The position numbers were made by a program, and so were the translations under genes. Source: Pyrinomonadaceae bacterium (GTDB lineage Bacteria > Acidobacteriota > Blastocatellia > Pyrinomonadales > Pyrinomonadaceae). From it: a stretch of 44,469 nucleotides of DNA. Below, piece after piece: positions 7,668-12,308 of the stretch (positions are counted from its first letter, which is position 1; the number at the start of each line of letters is the position of its first letter). Under the pieces are notes generated by a model that was given only the letters and a program-made list of their open reading frames with translations, was not told where the DNA came from and did no database searches. Location of the stretch: contig JABDKD010000087.1 in the NCBI GenBank assembly GCA_013003215.1, positions 1-44,469 of the forward strand. The letters are read 5' to 3'.

Positions 7668-8309
7668 ATGAACGACATTCCGAAGCGTAAAAAACGGTTT
7701 ACCCGTGCGGGCAAACTACGTCCTGTACTCGAAAAACTACCCGGGGCAGCGGTGAATTATGTCTTGATTTCGGTTTTGACTCTAGCTAGCTTCTATCTTT
7801 CGCTTCTATCAACATCGCAGCCGGTCCATAGCTATCAAAGGGCTCCAATCTCAAATGCGATTTCGATTCTTGAGGCAGAGGGGTTTGCTCGCGAAGTTGT
7901 GCTCCTGCGTTATGTTGCGACCTTTCGTACCTCGGATAGCTGGCTGAATTCGTTTGTACCGGATGAGAATGCATACGCCGCAACCAACTTTCCATTCGAA
8001 GTGATCACCCTGTATCCGGATTTCTTCAACAAGGCTACGGATGACCGGGAGCGGGCCGCGATTCTTCTGCACGAGGCACAGCATCTTCTAGGTAAGACTG
8101 AAAAACAGGCATATGAATACGTTTGGAAAAACAGAAAGGCGTTAGGATGGACACAAATGGCTTACGGTACTACCGAATCTTACGTGACGATAGAATTGCA
8201 GACGCGTGAGTTTTGTCCTGACCTTTTTGTCTGTACCCAAAACCTCTGGAACGATTGCACTCAGGCCAAAAAAGGGACGCTACATTTAGCAGACAAATCC
8301 GGAAGCTAA
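7668..8309 (+). CDS. Membrane-anchored protein with HExxH metalloprotease-like motif
   Basis: 213 residues. A basic N-terminus is followed by one hydrophobic helix (about 30-48, NYVLISVLTLASFYLSLL), so the rest probably faces the periplasm. H135-E-A-Q-H139 sits in a hydrophobic helix (AAILLHEAQHLLG) preceded by DDRERA, the classic context of a zinc-peptidase helix; Glu145 or Glu150 could be the third ligand. No wider family is recognised. Four Cys near the end (FCPDLFVCTQNLWNDC) could form disulfides. It sits between the M14 gene and pilA, and a peptidase role in the envelope is inferred from the motif alone. Confidence 0.55.
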   Translation: MNDIPKRKKRFTRAGKLRPVLEKLPGAAVNYVLISVLTLASFYLSLLSTSQPVHSYQRAPISNAISILEAEGFAREVVLLRYVATFRTSDSWLNSFVPDENAYAATNFPFEVITLYPDFFNKATDDRERAAILLHEAQHLLGKTEKQAYEYVWKNRKALGWTQMAYGTTESYVTIELQTREFCPDLFVCTQNLWNDCTQAKKGTLHLADKSGS

Positions 8310-8359
8310 GCTTCTATTCGGCATGTCAAGATTCAAGAAGCCTTGAAATTCGCATTAGT

Positions 8360-8451
8360 TGAGGTGGGACTTTTTCTTACTTTTGTAAGAGAAAGTCTCA
8401 TCTTTCTGCATTCCATCAGCATTGGGAATCAAATCGAGAGATGAGGTGGGA
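8360..8451. promoter_or_regulatory. Duplicated TGAGGTGGGA upstream of pilA (candidate activator sites)
   Basis: The 10-mer TGAGGTGGGA occurs exactly at 8360-8369 and again at 8442-8451, 82 bases apart in the same orientation. Relative to the predicted pilA transcription start (near 8537) they lie at about -177 and -95, the usual distance range for enhancer sites bound by sigma-54 activators such as PilR, whose gene is adjacent. PilR binding is inferred. Confidence 0.45.
8368..8397 (+). terminator. Hairpin between the HExxH gene and pilA
   Basis: GACTTTTTCTTAC and GTAAGAGAAAGTC form a 13-bp stem (one G-T wobble) with a TTTT loop, 58 bases after the upstream stop. The following bases (TCATCTTTC) are only moderately T-rich, so termination is plausible but not certain. 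It would insulate pilA from read-through. Confidence 0.45.
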
Positions 8452-8510
8452 AACTATAAATACAATAGATTCAATATATTAGGAGTGATTTCATAGAATA
8501 CTCGGTCGAA

Positions 8511-8526
8511 TGGTCTACGTCTTGCA
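8511..8526 (+). promoter_or_regulatory. Sigma-54 (RpoN) promoter for pilA
   Basis: TGGTCTACGTCTTGCA matches the -24/-12 consensus TGGCACG-N4-TTGCA at both essential doublets, GG and GC, with exactly ten bases between them; the -12 element TTGCA is perfect. Transcription would begin near 8536-8537, leaving a leader of about 93 bases. pilA genes are classically RpoN/PilSR controlled, and pilS-pilR lies directly downstream on the other strand. Confidence 0.72.
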
Positions 8527-8536
8527 GGGTAATGGG

Positions 8537-8612
8537 CAAGCGTAAATTAGTGTCCGGAAGGTAAGTGCGGCTATTGCCATCCGCGGTTTGCCGGTTACGC
8601 GGATCTAGAAAT
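8537..8612 (+). promoter_or_regulatory. Structured pilA 5' leader
   Basis: The predicted leader contains two hairpins: GGTAA/TTGCC enclosing GTGCGGCTA, and ATCCGCG (8579-8585) pairing with CGCGGAT (8598-8604) around a 12-base loop GTTTGCCGGTTA. The second ends just before the AAGGAG ribosome-binding site near 8615. It could control translation or mRNA stability. I looked for the c-di-GMP (GEMM) riboswitch core and did not find it. Confidence 0.4.
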
Positions 8613-8629
8613 TTAAGGAGTATTTTATT

Positions 8630-9109
8630 ATGAAAGGCACCACACAAAATCAAAAAGGTTTCTCATTAGTTGAGTTATTGGTAGTAGTTATTATTGTCGC
8701 AATCGTAGCAGCGATCGCGATTCCAAGTCTTCTCGCTTCGAGACGCGCTGCTAACGAAGCATCTGCGATCTCTTCATTGAGGACAATTCACAGTGCTCAG
8801 GCTACCTATTTTGGTACAACAGGCGGTAATACGACGTATACCTCATTGGCTGCGCTCGGTACTTCCGGGTTGGTTGATACTGTTCTTGCGGCCGGAGCGA
8901 AAAGCGGTTACAACTTCACAGCGGCAGTTGGAACGCCTACTTCAGTTTATTGCGGAACGGCTGTACCAACCAGTACGGGTATTACCGGAACCGGTGACCG
9001 CTCATTCGCAGTGAGCCAACCGGGCGTGATTTACGGTATTGCGGGCGGCGCGGCCCCGACGTGTTCAAACACTACCGGTGCAATCACTAGCGGATCGCCA
9101 ATTCAATAG
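8630..9109 (+). CDS. pilA: Type IV major pilin
   Basis: 159 residues with a strong AAGGAG site before the ATG. The prepilin leader is 10 residues ending in Gly10, followed by FSLVE (Glu at mature +5) and a hydrophobic helix to about residue 35 (IPSLLASRRAANEASAISSLRTI), the type IVa N-terminal signature. PilD would cut after Gly10 and methylate Phe. The globular part is rich in Gly/Thr/Ser and has two Cys (108 and 145), which could close a C-terminal disulfide loop as in many pilins. The stand-alone location, the sigma-54 promoter and the efficient terminator after it all fit the highly expressed major pilin. Confidence 0.95.
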   Translation: MKGTTQNQKGFSLVELLVVVIIVAIVAAIAIPSLLASRRAANEASAISSLRTIHSAQATYFGTTGGNTTYTSLAALGTSGLVDTVLAAGAKSGYNFTAAVGTPTSVYCGTAVPTSTGITGTGDRSFAVSQPGVIYGIAGGAAPTCSNTTGAITSGSPIQ

Positions 9110-9133
9110 TCAGTTAATTACTGGCTGAATAGT

Positions 9134-9172
9134 GAAAGGCAGGGAGTTTTCGAACTTCCTGCCTTTCTTTTA
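9134..9172 (+). terminator. Intrinsic terminator of pilA
   Basis: GAAAGGCAGGGAGTT and AACTTCCTGCCTTTC form a 15-bp stem (one G-T wobble) capped by a TTCG loop and followed by TTTTA. It lies 25 bases after the pilA stop. On the minus strand no T-run follows, so it serves pilA rather than the convergent pilR. Confidence 0.92.
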
Positions 9173-9204
9173 TGGCTGCTTTCATGGGCTTAGAGAGAAT
9201 CGCT

Positions 9205-10602
9205 TCACTGATTGGGATGCGTAGCTTTAAACTCGCCTTTGGATTTTAAGCCGTGCTTTGACATCAAATGGCGAAAAGCATGAACCGGAATTTGCAGCAG
9301 TTTTGCTGCGTTTGTCTGGTTTCCGTTAAAGCGGCTCAATGCCTCCTGTGCCATCGATTTTTCGAGTTCATTTAGGAATGACGGTAAGTGCAGCCCGTCA
9401 TCGGGAAGGGTATATTCCGTAGCCGGTGACGTTGAAATTTCCGGATCGACCAAACAATCTTGAGTTTCTATAGTGCCGCCATCCTTGGTCAGCACAACAG
9501 CACGTTCAATAACGTGTTCCAACTCCCTTACGTTTCCAACCCAGCTTCTTGTTTTTAATGAAGCGAGCGCGTCGTCAGATATAGTGACATTCTTTTTAGA
9601 TTTCGCACAGAATTTCGCAATGAAATGCTCAACCAGAATCGGGATGTCTTCAGTTCGCTCTCTTAACGGGGGAACCGTCAACGGCATCACGGAGATTCTG
9701 TAATAAAGATCACGCCTAAAGCTTCCATCTTCGATCTTCTCGTTTATATCGGTATTGGTTGCAGCGATGATTCGCGCATTAACCGGAATTTCCGAAGATG
9801 AACCGACAGGCCGAACCATGTTGTCTTGAAGTACACGAAGCACCTTCACCTGCATAGCGAGCGGCATGTCCCCAATTTCATCCAGGAATACGGTTCCATC
9901 TCCCGCTGCTTCAAAAAGGCCTTCACGGTCAGAGATTGCTCCTGTAAAAGAACCCTTAAGAAAACCGAAGAGCTCCGCTTCAAGTAAATGCTCAGGGATA
10001 GCACCGCAATTAATAGGAATAAATGGTTTATCGTTTCGCCCTGAAAGGCTGTGAATCGCTCGCGCCGCCAACTCCTTTCCTGTTCCTGATTCACCGGTAA
10101 CGAGAACTGTGGAATCTTCACCGGAAATGGTGCGGATCATCTCACAAAGCTTCCTAATAGATTCCGATTCGCCGATTATGTTATCAATATGGCCGTCAGA
10201 TTTTTGTGCTCTTCGGAATGCACGGTTCTCATTGATAATCGCTTGTTTTTCAAGCGTTCTCTTCACGATCAACTTGAGTTCATCGTTTTGAAATGGTTTT
10301 TGAATGAAGTCATCCGCGCCGAGTACAAAGGCTTCCCGAGCGACCTCCAATGAGGCAAATGCAGTCATCATAACAACCCGTATATCAGGGGCTGTTTCGC
10401 GCGCCTTTTTGAGCAGCGCGATGCCACCCATATCGGGCATTTTGACGTCGGAAATAATTAAATCGCACACAGAACCGCGAATGTGTTCCAGAGCTTCGAC
10501 TCCATTACTCGCGGTATCCACGATATGACCTTCTTTTTCAAAGACGACCTTCAGAACACTGCAATATCCTTCCTCATCGTCTACGATCAGCAATCTAGCC
10601 AT
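9205..10602 (-). CDS. pilR: Sigma-54-dependent response regulator, PilR type
   Basis: 465 residues in three domains. The receiver (1-120) has DD at 8-9, phosphoacceptor Asp52 (SDVKMPD) and Lys102. The AAA+ domain (about 140-375) has Walker A GESGTGKE (170-177), the sigma-54 loop GSFTGA (217-222; the first Ala is Ser, as in known PilR proteins), Walker B TVFLDEIG and the arginine-finger region FRRDLYYR. A FIS-type helix-turn-helix lies at about 418-447 (FNGNQTNAAKLLQIPVHAFR). It would be phosphorylated by the kinase encoded 32 bases upstream and activate RpoN promoters, most obviously that of pilA next door. Confidence 0.93.
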   Translation of the reverse strand: MARLLIVDDEEGYCSVLKVVFEKEGHIVDTASNGVEALEHIRGSVCDLIISDVKMPDMGGIALLKKARETAPDIRVVMMTAFASLEVAREAFVLGADDFIQKPFQNDELKLIVKRTLEKQAIINENRAFRRAQKSDGHIDNIIGESESIRKLCEMIRTISGEDSTVLVTGESGTGKELAARAIHSLSGRNDKPFIPINCGAIPEHLLEAELFGFLKGSFTGAISDREGLFEAAGDGTVFLDEIGDMPLAMQVKVLRVLQDNMVRPVGSSSEIPVNARIIAATNTDINEKIEDGSFRRDLYYRISVMPLTVPPLRERTEDIPILVEHFIAKFCAKSKKNVTISDDALASLKTRSWVGNVRELEHVIERAVVLTKDGGTIETQDCLVDPEISTSPATEYTLPDDGLHLPSFLNELEKSMAQEALSRFNGNQTNAAKLLQIPVHAFRHLMSKHGLKSKGEFKATHPNQ

Positions 10603-10634: not shown

Positions 10635-12308
10635 TCAGCGCGGAAACCTTATTGTGACCGCAGTTCCTTCTGAAACTTTACTCTCCACATTAATAATTCC
10701 ACCGTGGTCCCTAACAATCCCGTGCACGATCGAAAGCCCAAGTCCTGCACCCTTACTGCTCCCTGTAAAAGGCTCGTATAGTCTGTCGATCTTTTCAGGT
10801 GTGATTCCGCATCCACTATCCTTAAATACAATCGAAACGCTTTCGTCTGATGACGATTCTGCCAGGGTAATATCTAGTGTGCCCCCTTCCGGCATTGCGT
10901 TTATCGCATTCTGAGCCAGATTCCAAAGGACCTGCTTTATTTGAGTTTCGTTTGCCATTATAGTCGCGGGCTCATCGGGAAGTTCAGCATTGATCTCGAT
11001 CGAATCGCCGAGTTCGCGGCTGTGCTTAAGCAGAAGAAGACAGTCATTGATCGCGGCACGAACATCTGTTGGTTCTAGATGTTGTTTCTCCGCCTTTCCA
11101 CCTGAAAGCTGAGCATAAGTCAGAAAATTCGTTATGATCTCGTTCAGGCGGTCTGACTCGCGTAGGACGACGCCCAGTAGGTTTGCATCAGCGGTTTCCG
11201 GTTTTACGTGCTCTTCCAGAAACTGCATTGCGGAACTCATTGAACCGAGCGGGTTCCGAATTTCATGGGCCAATCCCGCAGCCATCCGCCCGACTGCGGC
11301 CAGGCGATCTGACTGTCGCAAAGATTCTTCCATCGCTCTAATCTTGGAAATGTCCTGAAATGAAATCAGCAATCCGTTAACCATGCCAGATCTGGCCACC
11401 AGTGGCGCCACAATGCATGCCACAGTTGCGTCATGCTCAGGATTCCCACCATTCGATCGAGAACTAATGGCCGATTCAAAATGAGCTGCCGGGAACTTCC
11501 TTTGTTCTGATGCCCTTTGAAGGCAAAGTTCAACCGAATTCCTTATGTCATCGGCAAACAATCGATAAATACTCTCTCCTTTCGCTTCAGCTGACGTATA
11601 TCCCGTCATGACAGCCGCAGCCCTGTTTACAGTTCGAATCTTGCCGGCAATGTCAGTTGTAATAAGGCCAGTAGGAATTGATTCGACTATCCTTTCGTGA
11701 AGAATGTTTAGGTCGTCGAAGCTTTCCTCTGTCTCTTTGAGTTTCCTACTGACAATTCTCCGCTCCGAAAGGTGTCCGGCTAGAAGGCCGACAATGAGGA
11801 TGCCAACCGTATTAAATGCAACAGTTTGCAGGAAACGCGAAGCGGGTATTTCAGCTGAAGACGAATAAAACAGCGAATCTCTGGACAAGAAAGACACAAC
11901 GGAATAGCCCAAGGCACTCAAGATCGAGACCACTATGGTCTCTGATTTTATAAGCGAATAGCCCGCAACGCTTATCAAAACTATATATAGCGTCACATAA
12001 GGAGACATATACCCGCCGGTCTCCGAAACCAGCCACGATATCAAAAGTATGTCAATGATCAGCTGTGCCCTAATCTGCCAAAGATAATCGGAATCGAATC
12101 TAAGGAGAAAGAGATACAGAAGTGTTAGTGCAATAGCAATCAGGAAGAGTATGAACAAACGGATCGGAAACGAGTCGGCCGACAGTTCCAGATAGTTGCT
12201 GGTCCACCACCAACCGGCGAGCATCAGCATGAAGATCAACGCGAGTCGCCCATAAATAAGGCCTCGGGTCTTTGAGATCAGGGAATCGATTTCGGGAGAT
12301 CGTTCCAA
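10635..12308 (-). CDS. pilS: Sensor histidine kinase, PilS type
   Basis: 557 residues. Six hydrophobic segments lie between residues 20 and 180, as in PilS. A PAS domain follows (about 205-325: ESIPTGLITTDIAGKIRTVNRAA, then FQDISKIRAMEESL). The HisKA dimerisation domain has phospho-acceptor His348 in GLAHEIRNPLG. The HATPase domain has an N-box (LWNLAQNAINAMPEGG), G1 (DSGCGITPEK) and G2 (GAGLGLSIVHGIV). It forms an operon with pilR and is the likely pilin-level or envelope sensor for pilA transcription. In PilS the membrane region senses pilin directly; whether this one does is inference. Confidence 0.92.
   Translation of the reverse strand: MERSPEIDSLISKTRGLIYGRLALIFMLMLAGWWWTSNYLELSADSFPIRLFILFLIAIALTLLYLFLLRFDSDYLWQIRAQLIIDILLISWLVSETGGYMSPYVTLYIVLISVAGYSLIKSETIVVSILSALGYSVVSFLSRDSLFYSSSAEIPASRFLQTVAFNTVGILIVGLLAGHLSERRIVSRKLKETEESFDDLNILHERIVESIPTGLITTDIAGKIRTVNRAAAVMTGYTSAEAKGESIYRLFADDIRNSVELCLQRASEQRKFPAAHFESAISSRSNGGNPEHDATVACIVAPLVARSGMVNGLLISFQDISKIRAMEESLRQSDRLAAVGRMAAGLAHEIRNPLGSMSSAMQFLEEHVKPETADANLLGVVLRESDRLNEIITNFLTYAQLSGGKAEKQHLEPTDVRAAINDCLLLLKHSRELGDSIEINAELPDEPATIMANETQIKQVLWNLAQNAINAMPEGGTLDITLAESSSDESVSIVFKDSGCGITPEKIDRLYEPFTGSSKGAGLGLSIVHGIVRDHGGIINVESKVSEGTAVTIRFPR

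Follow-up and report, generated by a model that had tools for sequence, protein, structure and literature searches.

The window analysed herein is a stretch of 44,469 nt from a Pyrinomonadaceae genome of the Acidobacteriota (contig JABDKD010000087.1, assembly GCA_013003215.1), in which a type IV pilin gene faces the genes of an NtrC-type response regulator and a PilS-like sensor kinase. On sequence comparison, the pilA, pilR and pilS genes of the window are paralogs, hence the suffix 2, of the standard pilS-pilR-pilA locus in the same genome. The features of the region are as follows, with G, C and L numbers denoting the genomes, contigs and loci compared.

7668–8309, plus strand: gene for a 213-aa membrane protein with a HEAQH motif, upstream of pilA2 and without a Pfam family; a syntenic marker of the locus
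8360–8369, plus strand: copy 1 of the 10-mer TGAGGTGGGA, overlapping the left edge of site 1; no conserved element
8365–8379, plus strand: candidate activator site 1 of pilA2, TGGGA-CTTTT-TCTTA (TGGGACTTTTTCTTA), with counterparts in G005, G091, G082 and G109
8386–8400, plus strand: candidate activator site 2 of pilA2, TAAGA-GAAAG-TCTCA (TAAGAGAAAGTCTCA), with counterparts in the same four genomes
8442–8451, plus strand: copy 2 of the 10-mer TGAGGTGGGA, without counterpart in relatives
8511–8526, plus strand: sigma-54 −24/−12 box TGGTCTACGTCTTGCA, the best sigma-54 match of the upstream region, with a predicted start near 8537
8630–9109, plus strand: pilA2, a type IV pilin of a second subclass with an N-methylation motif, in one clade with the pilins of G005, G091 and G109 (support 95)
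9205–10602, minus strand: pilR2, an NtrC-type response regulator (receiver, sigma-54 activator and Fis-type HTH domains by Pfam), in a clade of nine PilR2
9262–9285, minus strand: recognition helix of PilR2, V440-H441-A-F-R-H-L-M447, placed by alignment with FleQ and an NtrC-type domain (VRSLRHLL in standard PilR)
10635–12308, minus strand: pilS2, a sensor kinase with a PilS-like membrane domain (Pfam 6TM_PilS, PAS, HisKA and HATPase_c)

All Pfam domains expected of a PilS-PilR pair are found above cut-off in pilS2 and pilR2, and linkage to a type IV pilin is evident from the convergent arrangement of pilA2 and pilR2 in the window, G005 and G091, with pilT-like and prepilin peptidase genes (Pfam) close to the pilA2-pilR2-pilS2 cluster. 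In most family members the usual order is pilS, pilR and pilA on the same strand, and the standard PilR proteins encoded there are approximately 52–59 % identical to the PilR of the window. This standard set is also present in the window's own genome, split between C157 (pilS and the start of pilR) and C209 (the end of pilR and pilA); the window contains a second set. The initial annotation had proposed the pilS-pilR genes beside pilA as the likely regulator, which holds; that they form a second, paralogous set could not be seen from the stretch itself. Second sets are also found in G005 and G091, and partial ones in G003, G082, G107, G109, G110 and G086, with the proviso that the genomes compared are mostly drafts and several loci stop at contig edges. 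Orthologs of pilS2 display 66 % identity in G003 and 53 % in G005, and the sole close relative found in a scan of genome contigs was a G003-like pilS2 record. The nine PilR2 proteins form one clade in a quick tree (support 100), as do the five readable pilA2 proteins (support 95), which have in common the sequence GFSL[VI]ELLVVVII[IV]AI, seen in 0 of 95 other pilins. Relatives of the 213-aa protein (7668–8309) occur in 61 of the 119 family genomes, mostly far from pil genes.

Upstream of pilA2, TGG-N8-TTGC at 8511–8525 displays the GG/GC doublet spacing of a sigma-54 promoter, and the initial annotation was correct in reporting TGGTCTACGTCTTGCA at 8511–8526 with exactly this spacing. The pattern itself is not above chance in the window (8 observed against 5.97 expected), but counterparts are present upstream of pilA2 in relatives: the best sigma-54 match lies at −119 in the window, at −131 in G005 (TGGCACGCGCGTTGCG) and at −139 in G091 (TGGTACGCCTGTTGCG), and in G109 TGGCACGAGGGTTGTA lies 158 bp ahead of the gene. 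Due to this conservation of the box, which in G005 and G091 extends to its position, the predicted sigma-54 promoter ahead of pilA2 is supported, as had been suggested from the window sequence. The genome harbours rpoN once, and within 8300–9250 no Rfam match above threshold was found that would denote an RNA element in the pilA2 leader.

With regard to sigma-54 boxes elsewhere in the family, the −12 part of standard pilA promoters reads TTG[TA][AT] in 57 of 63 cases and TTGC in the other 6 (e.g. L066, L072, L073 and L141), so that the usually near-invariant C of the −12 element is replaced by T or A in most of these, compared with TTGCA in the window. A separate clade of pilins (support 99), encoded directly after pilR in several genera (L077, L085, L091, L092, L093 and L097), has boxes that end TTGC[AT], unlike those of the pilins that lie behind.

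Further upstream are the two predicted dyads, both of 15 bp and of the type TGAGA-N5-TCTCA, which lie about two helix turns apart and end 131 and 110 bp before the box, an arrangement of at least two dyads of approximately 15 bp upstream of the −24 element that is typical of NtrC-type activators. Corresponding pairs occur in G005 (TAAGACTTTATCTCA and TTAGAAAAAGTCTCA), G091 (TGAGACTTTTTCTTA and TGAGAAAAAGTCTCA), G109 (TGAGAAAAAGTGTTA and TGAGAAAAAGTCTCA) and, beside pilR2, G082 (TAAGACTTTTTCTTA and TGAGACTTTCTCTTA), with a dyad-to-dyad spacing of 21 bp in the window and 22 bp in the other four. From the end of site 1 to the sigma-54 box the distance is 131 bp in the window, 131 bp in G005, 122 bp in G091, 85 bp in G109 and 144 bp in G082. 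The argument is thus carried by five promoters with a pair and a readable box; in one of these, G082, the contig stops short of the pilin, and for this reason its pilA2 is presumed. Helical phasing of the distances between site and box was considered. They are clustered, but the best fit is to a period of about 12.5 bp, not 10.5 bp, and the sequences are related, so that no claim of phasing is made.

A second copy in G005 (contig C172) would have its pair 130 bp ahead of a weaker box, AGGAACGCCGATTGCC, should C172 and C277 be joined, a tentative connection via a 78-base overlap with 3 differences. In L069 (1–300) and L191 (4469–4609), what looks like a second pair with a weaker sigma-54-like box lies ahead of a short stretch that has a hairpin and a T-rich tail but no pilin, perhaps what is left of another pilA2 copy.

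Searches across genomes place these pairs almost exclusively at loci of this kind. Strict pairs with a 22-bp spacing occur at only five places in the 119 family genomes (twice in G005, and once each in G082, G091 and G108), all of which adjoin pilR2 or its syntenic 213-aa neighbour gene. Similarly, inverted pairs with up to 2 mismatches occur at four places in 162 genomes of the class, all amongst the pilR2 or neighbour-gene loci, with 0 for the reversed control. Single sites of the window type are not above the reversed control pattern across the family, and among those inspected, a partner site together with a pilin accompanied only that of G109. The pair of G108 is an orphan beside the syntenic neighbour gene, with neither pilR2 nor a pilin; either a remnant or an error in the draft may account for it. 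The draft genome of G107, whose PilR2 has the VH helix, yielded no pair, and none lies beside the upstream 213-aa gene in G107, G110 and G086.

To find the motif of the standard set, 63 standard pilA genes were used, and in the 260 bp that precede the sigma-54 box of each, all 5-mer palindromic dyads with gaps of 2–9 were counted at up to one mismatch, with three shuffled sets as control. TGACA-N5-TGTCA ranks first, being present in 44 of the 63 promoters, whilst no dyad exceeded 8 in the shuffles; in most of these promoters the site ends 129–133 bp before the box. A second, weaker site near TGCCA-N5-TGTTA lies 24 bp further on in 39 of them. By its recurrence in aligned promoters, TGACA-N5-TGTCA is the predicted standard PilR motif of this lineage. 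Its exact form is found at two places in the window's genome, one of which is ahead of the standard pilA. The two types do not mix: the window-type dyad is found at up to one mismatch in 0 of the 63 standard pilA regions, and ahead of pilA2 the best match to TGACA-N5-TGTCA has 3 mismatches, with the window-type dyad in its place. Three pilA genes from another family of the class harbour TGACA-N5-TGGCA at the same position, and therefore the TGACA-type motif, in the form TGACA-N5-TGTCA, is probably the older of the two. The Pseudomonas PilR site has a TGTC core, which is contained within TGACA-N5-TGTCA. For Pseudomonas PilR, the literature describes nearby GTCT elements.

The regulators differ as well. 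The recognition helix of standard PilR reads V-R-S-[LFI]-R-H-L-[LI] in every family member with a readable C-terminus, except L102, where the end is disrupted. That of PilR2 is VHAFRHL in the window and G005, VHSLRHL in G091, VHSFRHL in G107 and VHQFRYL in G109, whilst G082 retains VHS before a disrupted end. In the alignment with FleQ and an NtrC-type domain, the R/H position falls inside the recognition helix. It corresponds to the DNA-contact residue N457 of NtrC; a literature search for a paper giving the NtrC contact residues found none. In G110 and G086 the helix is EPYQLRHL and EPHVVRGL, respectively, and these two genomes have no pilA2 between pilR2 and the neighbour gene. In L123 (G082:C242; reverse complement 295–360), the pilR2 frame is broken inside the recognition helix by sequence similar to a CACAGAG-type repeat, which is either real decay or a draft error.

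Other explanations for the upstream region were weighed against control by PilR2 at the dyads. The initial annotation had assigned the PilR site to the 10-mer TGAGGTGGGA, of which there are indeed two exact copies, at 8360–8369 and 8442–8451, 82 bp apart and at a plausible distance, their reported positions of about −177 and −95 agreeing with a start near 8537. However, among 102 pilin upstream regions the exact 10-mer is confined to the window itself (0 of 101 others), with one-mismatch copies in only two unrelated ones, and it is thus not conserved ahead of pilA in relatives. Copy 2 matches neither TGAGA-N5-TCTCA nor TGACA-N5-TGTCA. Nor does the repeat by itself exceed chance: 7 % of Markov-shuffled versions of the 320-bp gap upstream of pilA2 contain a 10-mer repeated exactly, as do 36 of 552 real stretches of this length on the contig, and genome-wide counts are 5 for TGAGGTGGGA and 2 for its reversed control. 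That the 10-mer is the PilR site is accordingly very hard to credit, whereas the expectation of an activator site at a PilR-like distance is supported by the conserved predicted dyad pair.

A more serious rival is that the inverted pair at 8365–8400 is an intrinsic terminator of the upstream 213-aa gene with no role at pilA2. Folding of the window pair gives a hairpin of 16 bp (−21.0 kcal/mol), 55 bp past the stop codon and with TCTTTCT behind it. A T-rich stretch also follows the pair in several relatives, and the G108 pair lies near the upstream gene without pilA2. Against this, a hairpin with a T tract is not maintained among the relatives: the sites of G082 and G109 are direct repeats that fold poorly (−7.5 and −4.3), and hence such a hairpin does not explain their pairs, whilst in G005 substitutions weaken the hairpin (−9.5) yet leave both dyads intact. 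In addition, a separate terminator directly precedes the pair of G109, another hairpin with a T-rich tail stands before the G005 pair at pilA2, the upstream gene lacks a pair in G107, G110 and G086, and the distance to the sigma-54 box is kept. Termination as the only role is thus unlikely, although the window pair may have a double role, as terminator and activator site. It is similarly improbable that some other regulator, such as the standard PilR or another NtrC-type protein, binds the pair in place of PilR2. With a difference of one base pair in each half-site between the two motifs, cross-binding may occur; nevertheless, every pair lies at a locus that has pilR2 or the syntenic neighbour gene, and genomes with the standard set alone lack them.

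The reading preferred herein, which we consider likely, is that 8365–8526 is the control region of pilA2, where PilR2 would activate via dyads that diverged after duplication, with each PilR acting mainly on its own pilin. PilS2 would phosphorylate PilR2, the product of the convergent neighbour gene, and two PilR2 dimers would bind the dyads at 8365–8379 and 8386–8400. Bound PilR2 would then oligomerise and reach the sigma-54 polymerase at 8511–8526 by looping, with pilA2 transcription beginning near 8537; by analogy to NmpR and other NtrC-like regulators, binding of the paired dyads as dimers should precede activation at this box. The second set would derive from the standard pilS-pilR-pilA locus by duplication, after which TGACA/TGTCA half-sites would have become TGAGA/TCTCA, and VRSLRHLL in the helix would have given way to VH[AS][FL]RHL. 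Both changes together would keep either PilR largely to its own pilin. The two gene sets, both motifs with their placement relative to the promoter, the co-occurrence and the altered helix are seen in the sequences; from these we infer that the dyads are bound by PilR2, that the altered helix is the cause of the altered site and that the circuits are insulated. A split of specificity after duplication would be the simplest account of the altered helix and site, with the causal link between them offered as a hypothesis only, because the helix altered just once, on a single branch. More tentatively, and with slightly less than an even chance of being right, the locus may represent a natural specificity split of a sigma-54 activator within one genome, in which TGACA became TGAGA in each half-site and the helix R became H, giving two insulated PilSR-PilA circuits, and in which the helix decayed in relatives that lack pilA2 next to pilR2 (G110 and G086).

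The difference of approximately one base per half between the two pilin control sites suggests how copies of PilS-PilR may avoid cross-activation. The literature searched contained no PilR binding motifs for Acidobacteriota, and the present alignments provide testable predictions of such motifs for both the standard and the second PilR. Two motifs, two helices and two promoters are combined in a single cell, with roughly one base pair in each half-site and one main residue between them, which offers a small natural example of the way in which NtrC-type regulators may divide their targets after duplication. The second set could permit a different pilin to be made under a different signal.

Amongst known systems, control of pilA by PilS-PilR and sigma-54 in Pseudomonas aeruginosa (PMC6058289) is alike in possessing a PilS-type membrane kinase, an NtrC-type PilR, a sigma-54 box before the pilin and an upstream activator site; the window differs from it in containing a second complete set with its own TGAGA-N5-TCTCA motif, in a genome that also retains the standard set. 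NmpR of Myxococcus xanthus is NtrC-like and has paired GCGCA-N5-TGCGC dyads upstream of a sigma-54 box (PMC11841059), and thus resembles the pilA2 region, where PilR2 is the predicted NtrC-like regulator and two 5-N5-5 dyads likewise lie upstream of the box. The NmpR system differs in its half-site and in its targets, which are pilR and an oxygen regulon, and its sites are mostly 14–15 bp apart, compared with 6–7 bp in the pilA2 pairs (PMC11841059). DVU0539 and DVU0946 of Desulfovibrio vulgaris are, as here, paralogous response regulators with defined site motifs, but they share one motif (PMC3333781), whereas the two PilR proteins of the present genome appear to have split theirs.
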